From Candidatus Bipolaricaulis sp. (GTDB lineage: Bacteria; Bipolaricaulota; Bipolaricaulia; Bipolaricaulales; Bipolaricaulaceae), in NCBI GenBank assembly GCA_020062805.1, contig JAGUVP010000276.1, positions 1 to 15,775 of the forward strand: 15,775 nucleotides of DNA. Reading direction: 5' to 3'. The notes under the pieces are model-generated. The model was not told the DNA's origin and did no database searches. It saw nothing but the letters and a program-made list of their open reading frames with translations. Shown piece after piece: positions 1,537 to 15,676 of the stretch (position 1 is its first letter; each line of letters starts with the position of its first letter). Both the position numbers and the translations under genes were made by a program.

Positions 1537-2577
1537 CTACTGCACGCGCCCCGTGACCCGGAACGTCTCCACTTCCCCAGTCGTAGGCTGAATCGTTCCC
1601 CATATGTCGGGAACAAGGTAGATGCTGTATCGATAACCCGGGCTCTTCGCCGCATCGCGATCCGAAACGAACACAAGTGACTTCCCATCGGGAGCGGGAG
1701 ACCACGCTGGAGCGAAGTCTGCTCCAGGGTGCTGCGTGACCGGCCGCTCCTCCTTGGTGAACGGGTTGATCAGGTACACGTTCCAGTCACCGGTACGATC
1801 GGACTCGAACGCGATCCAATACCCCGTATCCCACTTCGGGCACCACTTCGGGTTCTGATCTTGCTTCGGGTGCGAGGTGATCCGCTGCACATTCCTGCCG
1901 TCGTAGTCCATGACGTAGATGTCCGTATTCCCGTTCACGTCCATGGTATACGCAATGTACCGACCATCGGGGGACACGTGAGGTGACGAGATCGGGTACT
2001 GGCTGTACGTGATCTGGGTCCACGTTCCGGTGGGGATGTTCACCCGGTAGAGCTGGGGGATCTTGCTGTACAGGTCGGAGACGATGATCAGCTCGCTATG
2101 CTGCCCTTGGCCGTCCTTGAGGGGACTCCAGGCAGGCATCGAATCGAGCCCTTGCGGGCGGTAGGTGACCCGGGTGTGGGTCCCCTTGAGAATGTCGTAA
2201 AGGTAGACATTACCCTGTGCTTGACCGTGCTTGTTGGAAACGTACGCCACTCGGCTCCCGTCCGGAGACACCGCTGGCTGGCGGTCATCGAACGTGTCAA
2301 TCGTGATCCGCGTGAGGGACTCCTCCGCACCCGGTGCCGGGGGCGCCACGAACAACTCCCGCGGAGCGTTCCTCTTGGACAGGTCGGCGCGGTTCGACAC
2401 GAACCAGATCGCCGTGGTCATCTTCCCATCAGGGTCCTTGGGGTCGATGTACCAGCCCCACGACGGCTGCACGTCCTCGATGGCCACCTTCTGGCCGCCT
2501 TGCCACACCACGACCAGCCCGATGGCCAACACCACAGCCAGCACTAACCCGATCGCTTCCAACGTCGCTTGCCCCAT
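1537..2577 (-). CDS. PD40/TolB-like beta-propeller protein with an N-terminal prepilin-like membrane anchor
   Basis: A 346-residue protein. After a short start (MG), the N-terminus is QATLEA followed by a hydrophobic helix to about residue 26. A Gly, then Gln, with Glu five residues after the Gly, then a helix, is the pattern of type IV/class III prepilin signals. The rest is a series of WD40-like (PD40) blades with the SPDG signature: AVSPDGSRVAYVS, MPAWSP, HVSPDGRYIAYT, NPKW, APAWSPAPDGKSLVFVSDRD. These match the TolB C-terminal propeller. The product is probably exported and held on the outer face of the membrane. The ATG at 2577 was chosen because AGGGGGAGG lies directly upstream and the promoter's -10 box covers the only other in-frame ATG codons (2640 and 2637). 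The short leader is odd for a prepilin. Ligand and function are unknown; it lies downstream of clp but has its own promoter. Confidence 0.75.
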   Translation of the reverse strand: MGQATLEAIGLVLAVVLAIGLVVVWQGGQKVAIEDVQPSWGWYIDPKDPDGKMTTAIWFVSNRADLSKRNAPRELFVAPPAPGAEESLTRITIDTFDDRQPAVSPDGSRVAYVSNKHGQAQGNVYLYDILKGTHTRVTYRPQGLDSMPAWSPLKDGQGQHSELIIVSDLYSKIPQLYRVNIPTGTWTQITYSQYPISSPHVSPDGRYIAYTMDVNGNTDIYVMDYDGRNVQRITSHPKQDQNPKWCPKWDTGYWIAFESDRTGDWNVYLINPFTKEERPVTQHPGADFAPAWSPAPDGKSLVFVSDRDAAKSPGYRYSIYLVPDIWGTIQPTTGEVETFRVTGRVQ

Positions 2578-2614
2578 CTCCTCCCCCTTGTTCTGGACGC
2601 GGCTGCTTTGCGTG

Positions 2615-2632
2615 AGACTGCAGATGCAGTCT
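2615..2632. promoter_or_regulatory. 18-bp palindrome over the -10 box of the propeller gene; candidate operator
   Basis: AGACTGCA, then GA, then TGCAGTCT: two perfect 8-base arms around a 2-base centre. It overlaps the -10 hexamer (2628-2633) and the expected transcription start, the classic place for a repressor site. It contains the hexamers GACTGC and GCAGTC, also found in the operator-like element before hsp20 but with different orientation and spacing. The regulator is not identifiable. Confidence 0.45.
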
Positions 2633-2656
2633 AGCATCATCGGTCCACCACGTCAA
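2628..2656 (-). promoter_or_regulatory. Sigma70-type promoter of the propeller gene
   Basis: On the minus strand: TTGACG (2656-2651), a 17-base spacer, then TAGACT (2633-2628) with an upstream TG (extended -10). The expected start is near 2621, leaving about 40 bases of leader that ends in the AGGGGGAGG Shine-Dalgarno sequence. This makes the propeller gene separable from the clp gene 150 bases upstream. Confidence 0.6.
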
Positions 2657-2726: not shown

Positions 2727-5384
2727 TCACCCGGAGCCGCTTCCGGCAGAGATCCTGTCGAATCGAGTCTGGCATTGGCTTGGGTCGTACACAACGCGGA
2801 CGGCGTCGCCCTCGGAGACCTCCCCATTGAGGAGAGCGTTGGCAAGAGAGTTCTCGACCTCGCCCCGGATCCGGCGCTTGAGTTCGCGAGCCCCGAACTC
2901 GGGCTGGTACCCGACCTCCGTCAGGTGATCCACGAGCGACGCGTCGAACTCGAGATCCACCCCCTGGGCCTTCGCCATCCGTCGCACCCGCTCCAGCTGC
3001 AGGAAGACGATGTCCCGGAGCTGATCTTGAGTCAGAGCGTGAAACACGATCACTTCGTCGATTCGGTTCAGGAACTCCGGCCGGAAGTGATGGCGCAAGA
3101 CGTCCCCCAGCTTCTCCTTCAGCTGCGCGTAATCGAGGCGCTGTCCTGTCGGCGCGATGAGGTTGCGCTGGATGAGGTCGCTGCCAAGGTTGCTGGTGGC
3201 GATGAGGATCGTGTTCGCGAAGTCCACCACGCGGCCCTTGCCGTCGGTGAGCCGGCCATCGTCGAACACCTGGAGGAGGATATTGTGGACCTCGGGGTGG
3301 GCCTTCTCGATCTCGTCAAGGAGGATCACGCTGTACGGCCGGCGCCGCACCCGCTCCGTCAGCTGTCCTCCCTCCTCGTACCCCACGTACCCTGGTGGGG
3401 CCCCGACGAGGCGGGACACGGTGTGGCGCTCTGAGTACTCGCTCATGTCGATCCGGACCACCGCCTCTTCGTCGCCGAATACGGCCCAAGCGAGCGTCTT
3501 GGCGAGCTCCGTCTTCCCAACCCCGGTCGGCCCGAGGAACAAGAACGTGGCGGTGGGGCGGTGTCCTTCCTGGAGGCCGGCCCGCGACAGGCGCACCGCC
3601 GCGCTGACCGCCGCCACGGCCTCATCCTGGCCCACCACCCGCTCGTGCAGCACCTCCTCGAGCCGGAGGAGCTTGTCCCGCTCCTCGGCGGTGAGGTCAG
3701 CAACCGGGATTCCGGTAAGAGAGGACACGATCTCCGCCACGTGCTCCACCCTCACCTCAGGGGAACCGGAGGCGACGCCCTTCTTCCACCGCTCCGTGGC
3801 CTCATCGAGGTCCTTCTCCTTGTCCACGATCGAATCCTGAATGCCCTTCGCCCGATCGAACTGCTTCCGCGACGTGGCGTAGTCCTGTTCCCGCTTCAAC
3901 GCCCGGATCTCCGCCTCCAGCTCCTGGACCTCGGCTGGCCGGGAGGTGGTGGCGATCCGCACCCGCGCCCCAGCCTGGTCCACGAGGTCGATCGCCTTGT
4001 CCGGGAGGTAGCGCCCGCTGATGTAGCGATCGGAGAGCTCAGCTGCGGCAACGATCGCCTCGTCTGTGATGCGCACCTTGTGGTGGGCCTCGAACCGGTC
4101 ACGCAAGCCGCGCAGGATGTGGACCGTCTGATCCACCGTCGGCTCGGCGATGAACACCGGCTGGAATCGGCGCTCCAGTGCTGCGTCCTTCTCCACGTGC
4201 TTCTGATACTCGTTGAGGGTCGTCGCCCCGATGAGGTGCAGCTCCCCCCGCGCCAGCGCCGGTTTGAGGGTGTTGGCGATGTCCAGGCCTCCCTCGGCCT
4301 GGCCGGCCCCGACGATCGTGTGCAGCTCGTCAATGAACAAGACTAGCTCGCCCTGGTGGGCAACGATCTCGTCCAGCAGCTCCTTCACCCGTTCCTCGAA
4401 CTCGCCACGGTACTTCGTCCCCGCGACGAGGGAGTTCACCGAGAGCTCCACGAGCCGCTTCCCGCGTAGCACCTCCGGGACCTCGTCCCGGGCGATGCGC
4501 TGGGCGAGCCCCTCCACGATCGCCGTCTTCCCCACTCCAGGCTCGCCGATGAGCACCGGGTTGTTCTTCTTGCGACGAGCGAGGACCTCGATCACCGTCT
4601 CTATCTCCTTCGCACGGCCAATGACCGGGTCGAGCTTCCCCTGGTGGGCGAGCGCCGTCAGGTCGCGCGAGTGCTTATCCAAGTTCGGCGTTGCAGAGCG
4701 ACGCCCGCTCCCCCCTTCCTCCTTCCCGCGGCCGACCACCCGTGCCGCCCTCTCGCGCACGCCTTCAGTGGTCAGGCCGTATCGGCGGAGGATGTCCCCT
4801 CCCAACCCGTCCGGCTCGTTCACAAGGCCGATCAGCAGGTGCTCAGGCCCGACATAGGCATGTCCCAGCTCGCGAGAGGAAGCGAACGCCCTCTCGAGGA
4901 CCGCCTTCACGCGGGGTGTGATACCGATCCTAACGGTCTCGCCCTTCGCGGCCCGCCGCTCCCCCCGCGGGGCGTTGTGCTCGACGTGGCCGCGGACATC
5001 CTCCGCCGGCAGCTTGAACGCGCGGAGGATCTCCCGCACGACCTCACTTTCGGTGAGGGCGTGGAGCACGTGCTCCGTGTCGAGCTCCCTTCTCCCAAAC
5101 CCCACCGCGACCTTGGCCGCTGCCTGGAGCAGATCGCGCGCCTGCTGAGAGAGATAGGCCTGAACATCCACCGCTTCGCGGTCCCCTCCCCACCGACTGC
5201 CTTCCGAGGAGGAAAAGTCTTCAAACAGCGACTCCCAAGGAGATCTTGGGCTCTCCTGGCGCAGCCGAGCGTAGTCGTGCTCGCAAAGGTCGAGCGTGCG
5301 GCGCCGGCCGTCCTCGACCACGTCCACCCGCACCGTTGCCGGTCGGGCGCGACACAGGTCGCACAGCTTCGTCGTGTAGCTCAT
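2727..5384 (-). CDS. Zinc-finger Clp/Hsp100 AAA+ ATPase, ClpG/ClpK-like disaggregase
   Basis: An 885-residue two-ring-domain Hsp100 ATPase that threads proteins through a hexameric pore. Domains in order: zinc motif CxxC...CxH (C8, C11, C34, H36), as in ClpE and apparently ClpG N-terminal domains; Clp_N repeat pair at about 72-215; first AAA+ with GEPGVGKT (280-287), Walker B ending IDE (351-353) and pore-loop Y325; a short UVR-like ClpC-type middle domain (about 484-538); second AAA+ with GPTGVGKT (618-625), LLDE (688-691) and pore-loop GYVGYE (665-670); sensor-2 GAREL (831-835). The ClpC/ClpA ClpP-docking loop (IGF/VGF type) should fall at about 741-749, but the residues there are NLIAPTGQR. 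This suggests disaggregation without ClpP. The middle domain is too short for canonical ClpB. The ATG at 5384 has GAGGAGG and AGGA upstream. It follows hsp20 by 90 bases on the same strand. Sure of Clp ATPase; subgroup less so. Confidence 0.93.
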   Translation of the reverse strand: MSYTTKLCDLCRARPATVRVDVVEDGRRRTLDLCEHDYARLRQESPRSPWESLFEDFSSSEGSRWGGDREAVDVQAYLSQQARDLLQAAAKVAVGFGRRELDTEHVLHALTESEVVREILRAFKLPAEDVRGHVEHNAPRGERRAAKGETVRIGITPRVKAVLERAFASSRELGHAYVGPEHLLIGLVNEPDGLGGDILRRYGLTTEGVRERAARVVGRGKEEGGSGRRSATPNLDKHSRDLTALAHQGKLDPVIGRAKEIETVIEVLARRKKNNPVLIGEPGVGKTAIVEGLAQRIARDEVPEVLRGKRLVELSVNSLVAGTKYRGEFEERVKELLDEIVAHQGELVLFIDELHTIVGAGQAEGGLDIANTLKPALARGELHLIGATTLNEYQKHVEKDAALERRFQPVFIAEPTVDQTVHILRGLRDRFEAHHKVRITDEAIVAAAELSDRYISGRYLPDKAIDLVDQAGARVRIATTSRPAEVQELEAEIRALKREQDYATSRKQFDRAKGIQDSIVDKEKDLDEATERWKKGVASGSPEVRVEHVAEIVSSLTGIPVADLTAEERDKLLRLEEVLHERVVGQDEAVAAVSAAVRLSRAGLQEGHRPTATFLFLGPTGVGKTELAKTLAWAVFGDEEAVVRIDMSEYSERHTVSRLVGAPPGYVGYEEGGQLTERVRRRPYSVILLDEIEKAHPEVHNILLQVFDDGRLTDGKGRVVDFANTILIATSNLGSDLIQRNLIAPTGQRLDYAQLKEKLGDVLRHHFRPEFLNRIDEVIVFHALTQDQLRDIVFLQLERVRRMAKAQGVDLEFDASLVDHLTEVGYQPEFGARELKRRIRGEVENSLANALLNGEVSEGDAVRVVYDPSQCQTRFDRISAGSGSG

Positions 5385-5440
5385 GCAGATCCTAACTCCT
5401 CCTCAAGCGGCCCTCACAGCGAGGCAACGAAGGGAGCCGA

Positions 5441-5462
5441 GGAGGGGCAACGGTGCCCCTCC
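5441..5462 (-). terminator. Intercistronic hairpin between hsp20 and clp
   Basis: GGAGGGGCA, a four-base loop and TGCCCCTCC form a perfect nine-pair stem 12 bases after the hsp20 stop codon. The bases that follow on the transcript (TCGGCTCCCTTCG) are not a proper U-tract. It is more likely a partial terminator or mRNA-stabilising stem that gives more hsp20 than clp transcript. No separate clp promoter is convincing in the remaining gap. Confidence 0.5.
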
Positions 5463-5474
5463 CCAGCGTTCGCG

Positions 5475-5924
5475 CTACTCCACCGTCACGTCGAACGCAC
5501 CCTCACCCTCGGGCGCCCGCTTCAGCGGGACCTCGACGATGAGGATGCCGTTCTCAAAACGGGCCTTGATCCCCTTGCGATCCTCCGCTTCCTTCGGGAG
5601 GGGGAACACGCAGCGGAACGCACCGCACCGGCGCCCCATGCGGATGTAGCTCTCGCTGCGGATGTCCTCGCACCGCTTCGTCTCTCCCGAGATGACCAGG
5701 CGGTCGCCCTCCACCTTTACCTGAACGTCGTCCTTCGTGGCGCCGGGAAGTTCCGTCTCGATCACGAGGTTGCTGTCCTTCACGTAGATGTCCGTCTGTC
5801 CAAAGCCGGGAGACACCTCGAGGTCCGGGAAGCTCCCGAAGTCCTTGAAGAACTCGTCCACGATCTGCCCCATTCGGGACGTAATCGCGAACGGGTCTCG
5901 CCACACAATCGGTAGTCTCGGCAT
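5475..5924 (-). CDS. hsp20: Small heat-shock protein, Hsp20/alpha-crystallin family
   Basis: A 149-residue ATP-independent holdase that binds unfolding proteins and forms oligomers in the cytosol. The alpha-crystallin domain runs from about residue 42 to 135. It has IYVKDSNLVIETELPG, then DDVQVKVEGDRLVISGE, and the closing family motif ENGILIVEVP at 124-133. The C-terminus ends in VTV (146-148), matching the IxI/V-type tail that docks in neighbouring dimers. The ATG at 5924 has GGAGG seven bases upstream. The gene has a strong promoter and an HrcA-type operator-like palindrome at its start. It is followed by the Clp ATPase on the same strand, the same order as in shsp20-clpG/clpK heat-resistance loci, where the small heat-shock protein holds aggregates for the disaggregase. 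It carries three cysteines (C85, C100, C105), but no redox role is claimed. Confidence 0.93.
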   Translation of the reverse strand: MPRLPIVWRDPFAITSRMGQIVDEFFKDFGSFPDLEVSPGFGQTDIYVKDSNLVIETELPGATKDDVQVKVEGDRLVISGETKRCEDIRSESYIRMGRRCGAFRCVFPLPKEAEDRKGIKARFENGILIVEVPLKRAPEGEGAFDVTVE

Positions 5925-5938
5925 GATACCACCTCCGT

Positions 5939-5965
5939 TTAGCAGTCACCTGTGCCGACTGCCAG
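5939..5965. promoter_or_regulatory. CIRCE-like operator (HrcA-type) in the hsp20 leader, variant sequence
   Basis: TTAGCAGTC, exactly nine bases, then GACTGCCAG. The CIRCE consensus is TTAGCACTC-N9-GAGTGCTAA, so 14 of 18 arm positions match. The left arm differs at one base and the right arm at three. One of these changes is symmetric (C to G on the left, G to C on the right), so the palindrome is preserved. The element starts directly after the -10 box and covers the transcription start, the normal CIRCE position. HrcA itself is not in this window. Confidence 0.62.
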
Positions 5966-5994
5966 ATTCTAGAACGGAGAGGGCCCCCTGTCAA
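5966..5994 (-). promoter_or_regulatory. Strong sigma70-type promoter of the hsp20-clp unit
   Basis: On the minus strand: TTGACA (5994-5989, perfect), a 17-base spacer, then TAGAAT (5971-5966, five of six). The transcript start would fall near 5959, inside the CIRCE-like element, about 35 bases before the start codon. A vegetative promoter combined with a repressor palindrome is the standard HrcA-controlled arrangement. Confidence 0.75.
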
Positions 5995-6012: not shown

Positions 6013-6894
6013 TCAGTGAGAGGTGGTCCAGCCGCGGGCCCGGTCCACGACACAACGCCGGCCGCTCAGCCGGTGGGATCGGTCACGGGCTTGTTTCTCC
6101 GGTAAGAACCGGGTCAGAGAGGTGGAAAGCGCTCGCACGACGTCACGATCGGGCCATACGCCAACCGCGAGGCCCGCGGACAACGTAGCGCCGAGCGAGG
6201 TCGTCTCGATCGTCTCCGAACGGACGATGGGGATGCCGAGAATGTCCGCCTGAAACTGACAAAGGAACGCGTCTCGCGCGGCCCCTCCATCCACCCGCAG
6301 CTCGGGCAGGCACGTGCGAGGAACTCCGAACAGATCGAGGAGCTCGGCATCCCCCGCACTGGTGTGGATGTCGTAGAGCAGGGTCTGTGAGGCGTCGGTG
6401 GGGTCGGTGGCGTGAACCCCGGCAAGGTTTCACTGAAGCCACGAGTCCACGGTTCCAACCAGGACGTCGCCGCGCTTAACCTTCTCCCGGAGGCCCGGCA
6501 CGAGGCCGAAAGGCCAGGCAAGCTCGGTCGCCGAGAAGTACGGGTCGCGGGGAAGGCCCGTCCGCTCGCGTACCCAGTCCTCCTCCCCCGCTGCCTTCAG
6601 CTCGCTGCATCGGTCTGCCGTGCGGCGGTCCTGCCACACGATCGCCGGGTACACCGCCTGCCCGGACGAGCGGTCCCAGGCCACGACCGTCTCCCGCTGG
6701 TTCGTGATTCCCAGCGCCTCGTGGACCACCGTGGAGGTGGCCGACAGCATTTCGACCGGGGCCTGCTCCACCTACCCTAGAGACGGGAACGCGAGCCCGA
6801 TTCCCCGATAAGCAGAGGGCATGAGCCGGACTCACTCGTCGAACAACGCACACCGCACCCCAGTGGTACCGAGGTCGATCACCTCAATGAAAGC
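6013..6894 (-). pseudogene. glpK: Decayed glycerol kinase gene (FGGY family)
   Basis: One minus-strand frame carries glycerol kinase motifs in family order: VIDLGTTGVRC (ATP-binding start), [77 protein letters not shown], then [22 protein letters not shown] and [13 protein letters not shown] to a natural-looking C-terminus. The frame is broken by TGA at 6834-6832, TAG at 6774-6772 and TGA at 6432-6430. The last two sit where the family has Trp (GWVEQ, WLxW). Compared with E. coli GlpK from memory, about 13 residues are missing before GITNQRET. About 185 residues are missing between LPELR and VDGGA, which removes the core of the ATPase fold, so no active kinase can be made. No recognisable original start codon remains. 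It lies 70 bases downstream of the Ldh2-family gene on the same strand and may once have been the last gene of that operon. Confidence 0.85.
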
Positions 6895-13008: not shown

Positions 13009-14289
13009 TTAACGTCTCAGGAGAGCACGTGCTTCGGTTACGGCAGTCCTCGCGGTAGCAAGCTCACCCTCCTCAAAGAGCGTTCTTGCCTCAGCAGCCT
13101 TGGCCTCGGCCGCAGCAACGTCTGCTCCCTTGGCCTTCGCGTCCGCGATCTGCAGCTCGACAGCCTCGATCTGAGACAGCGTGCTCTTCAGCTCTTCCCA
13201 CTTCCTGTAGATCTCCCTGTCGAAGGTGTTGTTGACCTCGTCCCACTGGGCCGTGGCAAGCTCAAGGTCGTAGTCCAGAAGATCGAGATCCACGGCCCAG
13301 AAGTTGTCGGCTCCGCCGAGCGCAGCGATGGCGTGCGAGGCCATGCTTACCCCCTCGGCCTGCCACTGCGTGAGGGAGATGTCGGTCCGGGCCACGAAGT
13401 ACCCACCTTGCAGCACGTACTTCTGACCCTCCATGCTGTAGAGCCAGTCGAGGAAGATCTTGGCGTTCCTCTCGTTAGGGGCACCAGCCAGCAGCGCTGC
13501 CGCCTCGGGAACGAGCACAGTAACGTCGGGAACAAGGTTTCCGACCGGATACCCATCACGGCGCGCAACCATCGCGTTCATCTGGGGTTGCGCGATGCCG
13601 ATCGGGTACTCTCCTCGCGTCACATTGTGGGTTGTGTCCGTGCTTCCAGTCGTCCAGCGACCCACCTGAGCCGCCAGATACCTTAGGTAGGCCCAGCCAT
13701 CCCTCCATCCGCGTGTCTGAAGCTGGATCTGAACGACCTCGTACATCGTGCCGGAGGCGTAGGTAAGGCACATCGCGATATGGCCTCTGTAGATGGGGTT
13801 CAAGAGATCGTCCCATGTAAGAGGAGGGGGCACGTTGTACATGCGGAGGACCAGCTCGTTGTACATGTTCGAAACGAGCCACGGCGCGAACGCGGACCAG
13901 TACCCGTCCGGATCCTTGGCGCTCATGCCGTGCCATTGGGCGGGGATCATGTCCCAATGAGCGTGTACATAGGGGACAGTCAGCCCGAGGCTTGCCAGAA
14001 CGGAATGGGCAGGAGCTCCCGCTCCCAGGAAGACATCGGCATCAGGCTTACCATCCCAAATTCTGACTCTATCAACACAGACGGGCCATCCGCCCGGCCT
14101 CACGAACGTAATCTCGATGGGTTCCCCGTAGGTTCTCAGGTAGTAGTCCTGGAAGCCTTTCTTCAGGCTCTCTGAGAGCTCCACGTAGATGGGGCCAACC
14201 CAACCAAGCTTCTGCTGCGCTGCTCCCGCCACAGCAAGAAGCGTGAGAAGGAGAAGACACGCTACAGCCAACATCTTTCCGCTTTTCAC
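13009..14289 (-). CDS. ABC transporter substrate-binding protein, AfuA/FbpA-like, with helical C-terminal tail
   Basis: A 426-residue exported binding protein (COG1840-like). The GTG at 14289 is chosen because AAGGAGG lies seven bases upstream and it gives a clean signal peptide: VKSGK, a hydrophobic run LAVACLLLLTLLAVAG, and a cleavage region around AGAAQQ. No lipobox Cys is present. The mature part follows the family pattern: ADVFLGAGAPAHSVLASLGL, then YWSAFAPWLVSNMYN, LTWDDLLNPIYRGHIAM, RGEYPIGIAQPQMNAM, and NAKIFLDWLYSMEGQKYV. After about residue 350 comes a charged helical stretch ending in an alanine-rich coiled-coil-like tail of about 65 residues (AKAKGADVAAAEAKAAEAR and on), which is not part of the ordinary fold. 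Relatives bind Fe3+, but AfuA of Actinobacillus binds hexose phosphates. The clustered metal-binding tyrosines of FbpA were not located, so the ligand is open. It is first in the three-gene transporter operon, just downstream of deoR. Confidence 0.88.
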   Translation of the reverse strand: MKSGKMLAVACLLLLTLLAVAGAAQQKLGWVGPIYVELSESLKKGFQDYYLRTYGEPIEITFVRPGGWPVCVDRVRIWDGKPDADVFLGAGAPAHSVLASLGLTVPYVHAHWDMIPAQWHGMSAKDPDGYWSAFAPWLVSNMYNELVLRMYNVPPPLTWDDLLNPIYRGHIAMCLTYASGTMYEVVQIQLQTRGWRDGWAYLRYLAAQVGRWTTGSTDTTHNVTRGEYPIGIAQPQMNAMVARRDGYPVGNLVPDVTVLVPEAAALLAGAPNERNAKIFLDWLYSMEGQKYVLQGGYFVARTDISLTQWQAEGVSMASHAIAALGGADNFWAVDLDLLDYDLELATAQWDEVNNTFDREIYRKWEELKSTLSQIEAVELQIADAKAKGADVAAAEAKAAEARTLFEEGELATARTAVTEARALLRR

Positions 14290-14377
14290 CTTGTTCCTCC
14301 TTATTGTTCCGTGTTGTCGGATCGCGCCACACGTCGGCACTTAGGTCTCCGCACTGCCGGTCTTCTGCCCGTCGCTA

Positions 14378-14484: not shown

Positions 14485-15273
14485 CTACGCGAGGAGCAGC
14501 TCCAAGCCCATGGTTGCTAGCTCTTCCCGGAATCCCACGTCCAACTCCTCATCGGTGACAATGATACCCACTCGCGACAGCTCAGCGATCTTGCCGTGGG
14601 TGATGGTCTCGAACTTGCTGTGATCAGCGACGATCACCACGCGCTGGGCGTGTGAGATGATCTCCCGCGCCGTCTCTGCCTCTTCCAAGGAGGGAATCGT
14701 GATCCCGTGGCCTACCGACAGCCCGTTGACCCCCAGGAACGCAAGATCAAAGTACACCCCCTCCAGGGCCTGGCGGGCCAACGGGCCGACCATGGCAAAG
14801 GACACACCCCGCAGGTACCCGCCGATCACGCAGACCTCCACCCCGGGGATCTCCGCCAGCTCGGTGGCATGGGTGAGGGCGTTGGTGAAGACCTTGACTT
14901 CCACAGGAGGCCGCTCCCGTAGCGCGCGCACGATCTCGATCGTCGTCGTGCCGTTGCCGATGAACACCGCCATTCCTTCCTCGATGAGCAACGCCGCCCG
15001 GCGCCCGATACGCCGTTTCTCGTCGAGGTTCCGGGTTGCCTTCTCGTAGTAGGACGGTTCAAGGGCCACCCGCTCCCGGAGCATCGCCCCTCCGTGCACG
15101 CGGACGAGCTCTCTCCTCGCCTCCAACGCAGCGAGATCGCTGCGAATGGTCATCGCCGATACGGCGAACCTCCGCGCAAGTTCCCCCGTGCGCACCACGC
15201 CCCGCTCCCGCAGCCCCTCCAGGATGAGCTGGCGTCGCTCCTCGGTCAACACTTGCTTGCGTCTTCTCACCAT
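14485..15273 (-). CDS. DeoR/GlpR-family transcriptional repressor
   Basis: A 262-residue repressor of the length usual for DeoR proteins. Residues 8-62 form the DeoR winged helix-turn-helix (EERRQLILEGLRERG, then RTGELARRFAVSAMTIRSDLAAL, closing with VRVHGGA). Residues 75-240 form the DeoRC sensor, a sugar-phosphate isomerase-like fold: GNGTTTIEI (107-115), TNALTHATEL, IGGYLRG, FLGVNGLSVGHGIT (179-192) and VADHSKF (215-221). Known relatives release DNA on binding a phosphorylated sugar or intermediate, for example glycerol 3-phosphate for GlpR. The ATG at 15273 has AAAGGA abutting it; the next codon is GTG and could be the real start with better spacing. It has its own promoter. Upstream lies a DUF1667 gene of the glycerol operon type, downstream an AfuABC-type transporter, and either could be its target. 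Confidence 0.92.
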   Translation of the reverse strand: MVRRRKQVLTEERRQLILEGLRERGVVRTGELARRFAVSAMTIRSDLAALEARRELVRVHGGAMLRERVALEPSYYEKATRNLDEKRRIGRRAALLIEEGMAVFIGNGTTTIEIVRALRERPPVEVKVFTNALTHATELAEIPGVEVCVIGGYLRGVSFAMVGPLARQALEGVYFDLAFLGVNGLSVGHGITIPSLEEAETAREIISHAQRVVIVADHSKFETITHGKIAELSRVGIIVTDEELDVGFREELATMGLELLLA

Positions 15274-15676
15274 TCCTTTCTTTTTCCATTATAGGCGCCC
15301 TCGCCTCCCCGTCAACGGCGCCCCGTGCAGCCACGGCCCGGGTGGCGACAAACGCAGCCCCGATGCCGAGGACGTCGCCGACCACCACCTGCCCCGCTTC
15401 CACCGGGGCGGAGACCTCCACGGACCGGAGCACGGTCATCGCCGCGGGGATGAGGTGCCGCGGGATGGGGTGTGTCGTGCGGATGGAGGCCAGCGGGAGG
15501 TCCCCCCCGATGACGCGCACGCTCGTGGTGAGGACCCGCTTGGGATCGAGAACTTCCTCACGAGCGTACACCACGCCGCGGGGACAGCCATGACCGCTCA
15601 CCCGCGCCGGGATCCCTCCTGCGACCTCGACCTCGATCGCGCAGCCCATCGGGCAGGACACGCAGATGATCCTCAT
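15059..15676 (-). CDS. DUF1667 protein of the glycerol-3-phosphate operon type, reading frame run-on into deoR
   Basis: The first 115 or so residues are a DUF1667 domain, a small protein with iron-sulfur-type cysteines encoded beside FAD-dependent glycerol-3-phosphate dehydrogenase and NADH-oxidase-like subunits. CVSCPMGC (C5, C8, C12) and HGCPRGVVYAREE (C31) lead, followed by LDPKRVLTTSVRVIGG, ASIRTTHPIPRHLIP and DVLGIGAAFVATR near residue 113, where the family normally ends. Here no stop follows: the frame continues about 90 more residues of low-complexity arginine- and glycine-rich sequence, overlapping the first 215 bases of deoR. A TGA lies one base out of frame at 15314-15312, right where the natural end is expected. 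A one-base indel, real or a sequence error, would explain this. The ATG at 15676 overlaps the upstream stop as ATGA. Confidence 0.75.
   Translation of the reverse strand: MRIICVSCPMGCAIEVEVAGGIPARVSGHGCPRGVVYAREEVLDPKRVLTTSVRVIGGDLPLASIRTTHPIPRHLIPAAMTVLRSVEVSAPVEAGQVVVGDVLGIGAAFVATRAVAARGAVDGEARAPIMEKERNGEKTQASVDRGATPAHPGGAAGAGRGAHGGTCAEVRRIGDDHSQRSRCVGGEERARPRARRGDAPGAGGP
15288..15315 (-). promoter_or_regulatory. Consensus sigma70 promoter of deoR
   Basis: On the minus strand: TTGACG (15315-15310), a 16-base spacer, then TATAAT (15293-15288, perfect). The start would fall around 15280, only 5-8 bases before the ATG at 15273, leaving little room for a leader. The Shine-Dalgarno AAAGGA overlaps this. 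The promoter lies within the run-on part of the DUF1667 frame, which supports that part not being a conserved protein. Confidence 0.65.

Follow-up and report, generated by a model that had tools for sequence, protein, structure and literature searches.

A chromosomal ClpG-family Hsp100 gene beside hsp20 in a Bipolaricaulota genome

The literature consulted describes ClpG, whether mobile or core, as a disaggregase that Proteobacteria have in addition to ClpB. Its defining feature is an N1 domain ahead of the common N domain (PMC8024975); ClpG_GI is marked by an extended N-terminal domain and a shorter middle (M) domain, and does not require DnaK (PMC7785292). In the characterised enzymes aggregates are bound by N1, of which each hexamer needs several, and the second ATPase ring (AAA2) is the main threading motor (PMC8024975; PMC10641755). 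In the transmissible locus of stress tolerance (tLST), mobile elements flank a dna-hsp20-clpG core that is accompanied by stress cargo. Its genes are known in Proteobacteria and Deinococcus, and the 2021 review of these islands holds that their origin cannot be told from current data (PMC8290217). The subject of this study is a 15,775-nucleotide stretch of Candidatus Bipolaricaulis sp. (contig JAGUVP010000276.1, here called the window), in which a small heat-shock gene, hsp20, is followed on the same strand by a gene for an Hsp100 ATPase, as in the Pseudomonas fragi and Aeromonas clpK loci, where hsp20 also stands just upstream. A sequence-only reading had pointed to this likeness; both genes proved real and lie 90 nt apart (Table 1).

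By sequence comparison, the window Hsp100 is a chromosomal member of the ClpG/ClpK clade and is neither ClpC nor ClpE. We consider it likely that it is a ClpG-family disaggregase working with the small heat-shock protein in place of ClpB. The NCBIfam models rank ClpG first (1260.1 bits), followed by ClpK (1244.6), ClpB (983, below the cut-off of 1232 of model TIGR03346) and ClpA (742), and the domain matches comprise AAA, AAA_lid_9, AAA_2, ClpB_D2-small and Clp_N. Among the best 60 of 2295 plasmid records, relatives share 60.9-64.7% identity over 97-100% of the window protein, including a Klebsiella ClpK (61.0%) and a Deinococcus relative (63.9%), both over 99-100%. A ClpC-like Paenibacillus protein reaches 50.8% over 89%.

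Tree reconstruction gave the same placement, within the ClpG/K clade, with an SH-like approximate likelihood-ratio test (SH-aLRT) value of 100 in a 68-row tree and 100/100 in trees of 64 and 53 rows. The first tree, built on 631 AAA columns, is the sole one with ClpA and ClpL, and was made without five extracted rows (L018, L028, L048 and L124, partial; L033, a near-copy). Four long-branch rows, ClpA and ClpL among them, were left out of the 64-row tree; for the 53-row tree, 21 of the 68 rows were removed as long branches or near-copies and six were added. The sister of the whole ClpG clade is unstable, being ClpB in the two larger trees, while in the smallest ClpB groups with Bipolaricaulota paralogs.

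Could the protein instead be the ATPase of a ClpP protease, as a relative of ClpC or ClpE? Its M domain is as long as that of the ClpC rows, and ClpE also has an N1-type zinc finger (PDB 29hb, E 2.6e-4). However, both of these families bear a ClpP loop, ClpC by the aligned rows and ClpE according to PMC13125188, which gives it an N1-like domain and a VGF motif. The xGF loop is missing in every aligned ClpG row, the window's included, whereas 21 of 23 sampled Bipolaricaulota paralogs have it, and the approximately unbiased (AU) test rejected a clade that joins Bipolaricaulota ClpG with the phylum's own loop-bearing paralogs (p 8.2e-5, ten paralogs in the tree). The ClpC/ClpE reading was rejected on the loop, the tree placement and this test, and a role as ClpP partner is barely credible. 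Since the loop is missing, the window ClpG would not dock ClpP in the usual way. Elsewhere in the genus, ten of 11 genomes have a strong ClpP match (about 240 bits), G002 being the one in which, as in the window's incomplete genome, none was seen. The assignment to the ClpG/ClpK clade holds on the best NCBIfam models, the 100/100 support and the absent loop; firm nesting in ClpC or ClpE, named beforehand as the refuting outcome, was not seen.

The domain make-up is that of ClpG, namely N1-N2-AAA1-M-AAA2, the defining N1 preceding the common N domain. When a profile was built from 15 Bipolaricaulota N1 rows, its best PDB match was 8p66, the solved ClpG N1 (E 1.8e-8), before ClpE 29hb (2.6e-4) and McsA 8wtb (0.016). 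The predicted N1 model has a mean pLDDT (the predicted local confidence score) of 71, rising to 91 for residues 11-20 and 92 for residues 31-40, and its top Foldseek match is again 8p66, a weak one (E 0.013, TM-score 0.48/0.59). Of the CxxC/CxH N-terminus initially proposed, the cysteines stood: C8 and C11 form the CxxC and, like C34, are invariant across 16 aligned rows. The histidine did not, as H36 is not conserved in the alignment and D37 occupies the place of ClpG H34. Another form of the finger, CxxC...CxxC with four cysteines and ClpE-like, replaces the Cys3-His/Asp type in the B-type ClpG proteins described below (L023-L027, L029).

The motor parts are intact in both rings, with Walker A at residues 280 and 618, Walker B at 348 and 686, and the pore motifs KYRG at 324 and GYVG at 665. 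The short middle domain noted at the outset was borne out: it measures 81 residues, a length shared by the ten ClpG/K references and the ClpC-like rows, whereas five ClpB rows have 139-142 (two of the five are named; M length and tree position assigned the other three). ClpB shares the two-ring ATPase, the threading motifs, the lack of a ClpP loop and a presumed role in disaggregation; it differs in its longer M domain, its lack of N1 and its separate clade. From what is reported of characterised ClpG, we infer that the window protein binds and disaggregates aggregates autonomously. Hsp20 would keep proteins that are unfolding in a loosely aggregated state; N1 zinc fingers, several per ClpG hexamer, would bind the aggregate without DnaK, and the AAA rings would thread polypeptides through the pore, releasing them to refold.

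Of 100 Bipolaricaulota genomes, 34 have a ClpG (E <= 1e-250), among them the window's; in its genus 11 of 12 genomes do, and there clpG has apparently been retained by descent. Canonical ClpB exceeded its curated cut-off in a single one of the 100 genomes, G068, in which ClpG was not found. As to whether clpB is absent from related genomes, a question raised from the start, it was found in none of the 34 ClpG-bearing genomes, many of which are incomplete metagenome-assembled genomes (MAGs); the same search was positive in eight of 14 control genomes. In the window's genus ClpG would take over the job of ClpB. The sole canonical ClpB, that of the 4.1-Mb genome G068, lies at G068:C12:63651-66230 and scores 1369 bits.

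Beyond this phylum, ClpG (E <= 1e-240) was found in five of 398 genomes of Pseudomonadota, the phylum of a Hyphomicrobiales genome, and in none of 396 of Acidobacteriota, a set without a positive control. In both surveys two candidates were scored per genome, so some ClpG could be missed. The survey covered these two phyla and Bipolaricaulota. A phylum in which chromosomal ClpG is common, and in which none of the 34 ClpG-bearing genomes showed a ClpB, offers a natural test of ClpG as main disaggregase. No report of ClpG in Bipolaricaulota, or of the protease linkage described below, appeared in the titles and opening lines of abstracts among the open-access papers listed by the searches, and passages of PMC10850787 (on FtsH linkers) and PMC10086821 report neither.

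The window is contig C39 of a Candidatus Bipolaricaulota MAG of 1.71 Mb in 330 contigs, 73% complete. The locus is also present in G005 and G009, where it is chromosomal, as each of these genomes (1.3 and 1.7 Mb) is a single contig. The absence of mobile signals claimed in the sequence-only reading held among the ten further window ORFs (open reading frames) scanned, which hold no transposase, integrase or mobile element (the ORFs at 13009-14340 and 15059-15676 lie outside the scan); they include PAQR/HlyIII, a pyridoxamine-oxidase-like protein, an FGGY kinase piece, Ldh2, HAD, EamA, an ABC transporter and a DeoR regulator. The codon use of clpG, described there as native, is the third closest to the remainder among 12 window genes, and its G+C content is 0.666 against 0.638 for the window. 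A mobile origin of the window copy was rejected on these grounds and on the TolB-like neighbour common to G002, G009 and G010. Among window queries for ftsH, trxC, hdeD, yfdX1, kefB, htpX, degP, rhomboid and SDH genes, none gave a match at the thresholds used, leaving only hsp20 and clpG and not the make-up of a tLST island. The window copy differs from described ClpG/ClpK in being chromosomal, with no mobile genes seen, in a phylum with ClpB in one of 100 genomes.

The neighbours of clpG were surveyed at all 34 Bipolaricaulota loci. Conservation of the hsp20 adjacency, which had been proposed as a check, was confirmed in the genus: hsp20 lies upstream on the same strand in ten of 11 ClpG-bearing genomes, and in the eleventh, G006, the contig ends 35 nt upstream. 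Across the phylum this applies to 16 of 34 loci, while in G026 hsp20 is upstream on the other strand. It stands directly before clpG at five loci (G000, G002, G005, G008, G010). At 11 others an SDH-family, ClpP-fold serine protease gene (hereafter SDH) intervenes, giving the order hsp20-SDH-clpG, five of them in the window's genus and six in genera g5 and g12. SDH follows clpG at a further 12 loci, and six loci have no hsp20-clpG or SDH arrangement; in two of the six, G006 and G036, a contig end truncates the locus. SDH is therefore the usual neighbour in the window's group, a difference from described ClpG/ClpK.

The G022 copy of this protease scores 410 bits with PF01972 and 420 bits with NF047768 (cut-off 250), over both cut-offs. 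Neither a linkage of this Clp-fold proteinase family to clpG nor an overlap between the genes came up in the literature searches. Four of the 12 clpG-SDH loci (L024, L029, L167, L168) carry a rhomboid-like gene directly upstream of a B-type clpG, with 48-58% identity to an annotated Agrobacterium rhomboid protease; rhomboid and SDH genes are also neighbours in Agrobacterium and Paracoccus islands. In G052 (L047, 8509-10935), clpG and SDH are followed by an overlapping long ORF that by eye resembles a Lon-type ATPase protease.

This linkage raises the possibility that ClpG and a membrane-anchored SDH form one machine, with aggregate proteins handed to the protease for degradation, and that the window lineage lost the protease at this locus. 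SDH adjoins clpG at 23 of 34 loci in two gene orders, 11 before and 12 after (only part of SDH being on the contig in G013 and G038), and at 21 of these 23, in both orders, the two genes overlap by 1 or 4 nt, a start codon of the downstream one running into the stop of the one before it; G015 and G025 are the exceptions, and this count allows for other choices of start codon. The predicted model of the G022 SDH has a long N-terminal helix (residues 2-41), its best fold matches are SppA and ClpP, and ten aligned SDH rows all have the motif AMSGG. The fold similarity is moderate, however (E 1e-5 to 1e-3, TM 0.3-0.6), and no docking feature was found. SDH also stands beside hsp20 in six genomes where ClpG was not found (G017, G023, G029, G031, G033 and G035), so placed that hsp20-SDH may be a unit of its own (L077-L080, L084, L089); G028 likewise has SDH with no ClpG found, and these seven genomes are 69-91% complete. 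No SDH was seen in the window genome, G002 or G010.

Outside the phylum, SDH relatives over at least 80% of its length occur on 16 plasmid records at 58-63% identity. Six of these are from Thermus; of the other ten, eight have a clpG relative at a distance of 3-8 kb. One Thermus plasmid SDH has no annotated clp ATPase within 6 kb. SDH lies within the stretch at four of 15 non-Bipolaricaulota clpG loci searched (Agrobacterium, Roseomonas, Paracoccus and G443) and not at the other 11, which include the P. fragi and Aeromonas clpK loci. On balance we regard a joint ClpG-SDH machine as an unlikely account of the window protein. In most relatives such a machine would be possible, and the coupled gene makes a link between disaggregation and membrane proteolysis testable.

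The bare hsp20-clpG order of the window is probably derived and not ancestral, on the gene orders of relatives. Since 11 relatives, of the same genus (five) and of g5/g12 (six), carry SDH between hsp20 and clpG, the bare pair is most simply explained by SDH loss, both in the window's lineage (G000, G002 and G010) and in G005 and G008. The latter two retain a different SDH type elsewhere in the genome. That the G008 copy branches apart from the window's in the 53-row tree suggests two separate losses. The gene-order likeness to mobile islands would therefore probably be secondary, and not inherited as such.

We return to the reading of the window protein as a ClpG disaggregase acting in place of ClpB, against which several findings weigh. 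The protein misses the NCBIfam cut-off of 1900 bits for ClpG and ClpK (NF033607, NF033606; 1260 and 1245). P. fragi ClpK passes it (2159), but the Agrobacterium (1596), Deinococcus (1426) and Burkholderia multivorans (1442) relatives also miss it, so the cut-off marks narrow subfamilies. At the fourth zinc position it has Asp instead of His, as do Deinococcus and Microvirga; His stands there in P. fragi ClpK, Agrobacterium and B. multivorans, and Cys in two B-type rows (L025, L026) and in L045. In ClpG the N1 zinc is bound through C6/C9/C31/H34, and a single H34A change leaves it largely active (PMC10641755). V17 and L21 of ClpG are needed for aggregate binding, L21E lowers the activity of Pseudomonas aeruginosa ClpG, and some ClpG proteins carry Gln there (PMC10641755). 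V17 aligns with V20 of the window protein. L21 aligns with Glu24, the very change that lowers activity; V22 and V23 might make up for it, and other family rows have Q, R, S or V. The protein has no C-terminal extension of the ClpG/K kind, its tail being of 20 residues against 43-78 in ten ClpG/K references. Tails of A-type Bipolaricaulota rows range from 17 to 63 residues, and deletion of the ClpG_GI C-terminus slightly reduced heat resistance in dnaK103, with a clearer drop in complementation at 41 C (PMC8024975).

Genome content adds to these objections. In six genomes (G012, G013, G018, G024, G026, G048) the B-type ClpG is accompanied by an Hsp100 of about 750 aa; the two that were aligned (L127 from G026, L135 from G048) have no ClpP loop and M regions of 21-24 residues, so ClpG need not be the sole loop-less Hsp100 there. 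None of this type is listed in the window's genus. These proteins make up a third type, and similar lengths occur in other Bipolaricaulota genomes; together with Glu24 they slightly lower our confidence in this reading. As clpG is coupled to a protease gene in most relatives, refolding may not be the sole fate of its substrates. Finally, DnaK is present in the window's genome (850 bits), and genome content therefore does not imply independence from it.

This last point leads to a further alternative, in which the protein replaces ClpB but still needs DnaK to be targeted to aggregates. With DnaK over its cut-off in 47 of 59 relatives and ClpB in one of 100 genomes, DnaK is without its usual partner, and Glu24 could weaken N1 binding. 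But the M domain is of the short ClpG length, not that of ClpB, and N1 gives the protein its own route to aggregates, which makes this alternative very unlikely. G010, a 95% complete genome with hsp20-clpG, has neither DnaK over the cut-off nor SDH.

Comparison within the clade bears on the origin of the mobile forms. Bipolaricaulota ClpG falls into two lineages, A (the window protein and rows 70-98% identical to it) and B (60-64%). The best tree of 53 rows places a single group (99/93) of twelve Pseudomonadota and Deinococcus proteins inside A; it includes a ClpK and all five copies found in the Pseudomonadota survey. Of 200 bootstrap trees, 1% have a branch that separates A from all other rows. 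The AU test did not reject A held together (p-AU 0.086 in the 64-row tree, 0.202 in a later AU test); it rejected A and B held together against the rest (p 3.6e-5). The nesting of proteobacterial and Deinococcus ClpG/K inside Bipolaricaulota ClpG is thus favoured by the best trees and not proven, sister groups remaining compatible with the AU test. The sequence-only reading had suggested an ancestral chromosomal version of these systems: a chromosomal ClpG/ClpK-clade member it is, and its ancestral status is likewise favoured but unproven. A firm claim that Proteobacteria acquired ClpG from Bipolaricaulota is not made, because of these p-AU values for the alternative and because other phyla lie outside the sampling. 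Bipolaricaulota ClpG proteins are candidate donors for comparison, and may help tell where the mobile version came from.

In alphaproteobacterial heat-resistance islands, stretches from Agrobacterium and Paracoccus combine clpG with rhomboid, SDH, ftsH and trxC genes, and the Agrobacterium one also has three hsp20 genes. In a tree of SDH made without duplicates, the partial rows L100 and L111 and the SDH pieces of G013 (L024) and G038 (L022), the five Pseudomonadota proteins form one group (100/100) among Bipolaricaulota types, with weak deep branches. The main text of PMC8290217 mentions no SDH, serine protease, rhomboid or Acetothermia. One could imagine that Bipolaricaulota or close kin were the source of the mobile ClpG/ClpK island core. 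In this ancient module Hsp20 and ClpG would have been joined by a co-translated SDH, and sometimes by a rhomboid protease, with ClpG feeding SDH at the membrane; some alphaproteobacterial islands would have kept hsp20, clpG, rhomboid and SDH, the clpK type only hsp20-clpK, and the window lineage would have dropped the protease on its own. We hold this scenario to be rather unlikely as a whole.

Table 1. Features of the hsp20-clpG locus and its downstream neighbour (window coordinates)
Feature	Position	Strand	Evidence or remark
clpG-type gene (Hsp100, 885 aa: N1 zinc finger, Clp_N (N2), AAA1 with short M domain, AAA2)	2727..5384	-	domain, NCBIfam and tree evidence
N1 domain, residues 1-44 (C8, C11, C34; D37 at place of ClpG H34)	5253..5384	-	alignment; profile match PDB 8p66
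N2 domain (Clp_N-like), residues ~78-217	4734..5153	-	PF02861 on 166-217; other Hsp100 N domains align from ~residue 78
Short M domain region, residues 465-546	3747..3992	-	81 residues by alignment
AAA2 stretch where ClpC bears the xGF ClpP-docking loop (absent), residues 732-772	3069..3191	-	alignment
C-terminal tail, residues 866-885	2730..2789	-	alignment
hsp20-clpG spacer, 90 nt (site of the SDH gene in 11 relatives)	5385..5474	-	
hsp20 small heat-shock gene, 149 aa	5475..5924	-	PF00011 (HSP20), E 4e-16
TolB-like beta-propeller gene, downstream of clpG	1537..2640	-	same neighbour in G002, G010, G009

The right edge of the locus, first set at 5994, was too far, as it belongs to an ORF in another frame; hsp20 reaches to 5924. 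An Rfam scan of the window gave zero matches, as did a search for HrcA/CIRCE control allowing up to three mismatches. Relatives of the window Hsp100 were collected at 29 loci in named genomes, and the 22 best (68-98% identical) all come from MAGs filed as Bipolaricaulota or Acetothermia, except one filed as Thermotoga. The latter, L033, encodes a ClpG 98% identical to the window's under the name 'Thermotoga sp. isolate BE2012_65_8', a label that looks wrong. An FGGY carbohydrate kinase at 6013-6853 on the minus strand is seemingly in pieces in different frames (PF00370 on 6430-6771), which points to a decayed gene or to assembly errors.

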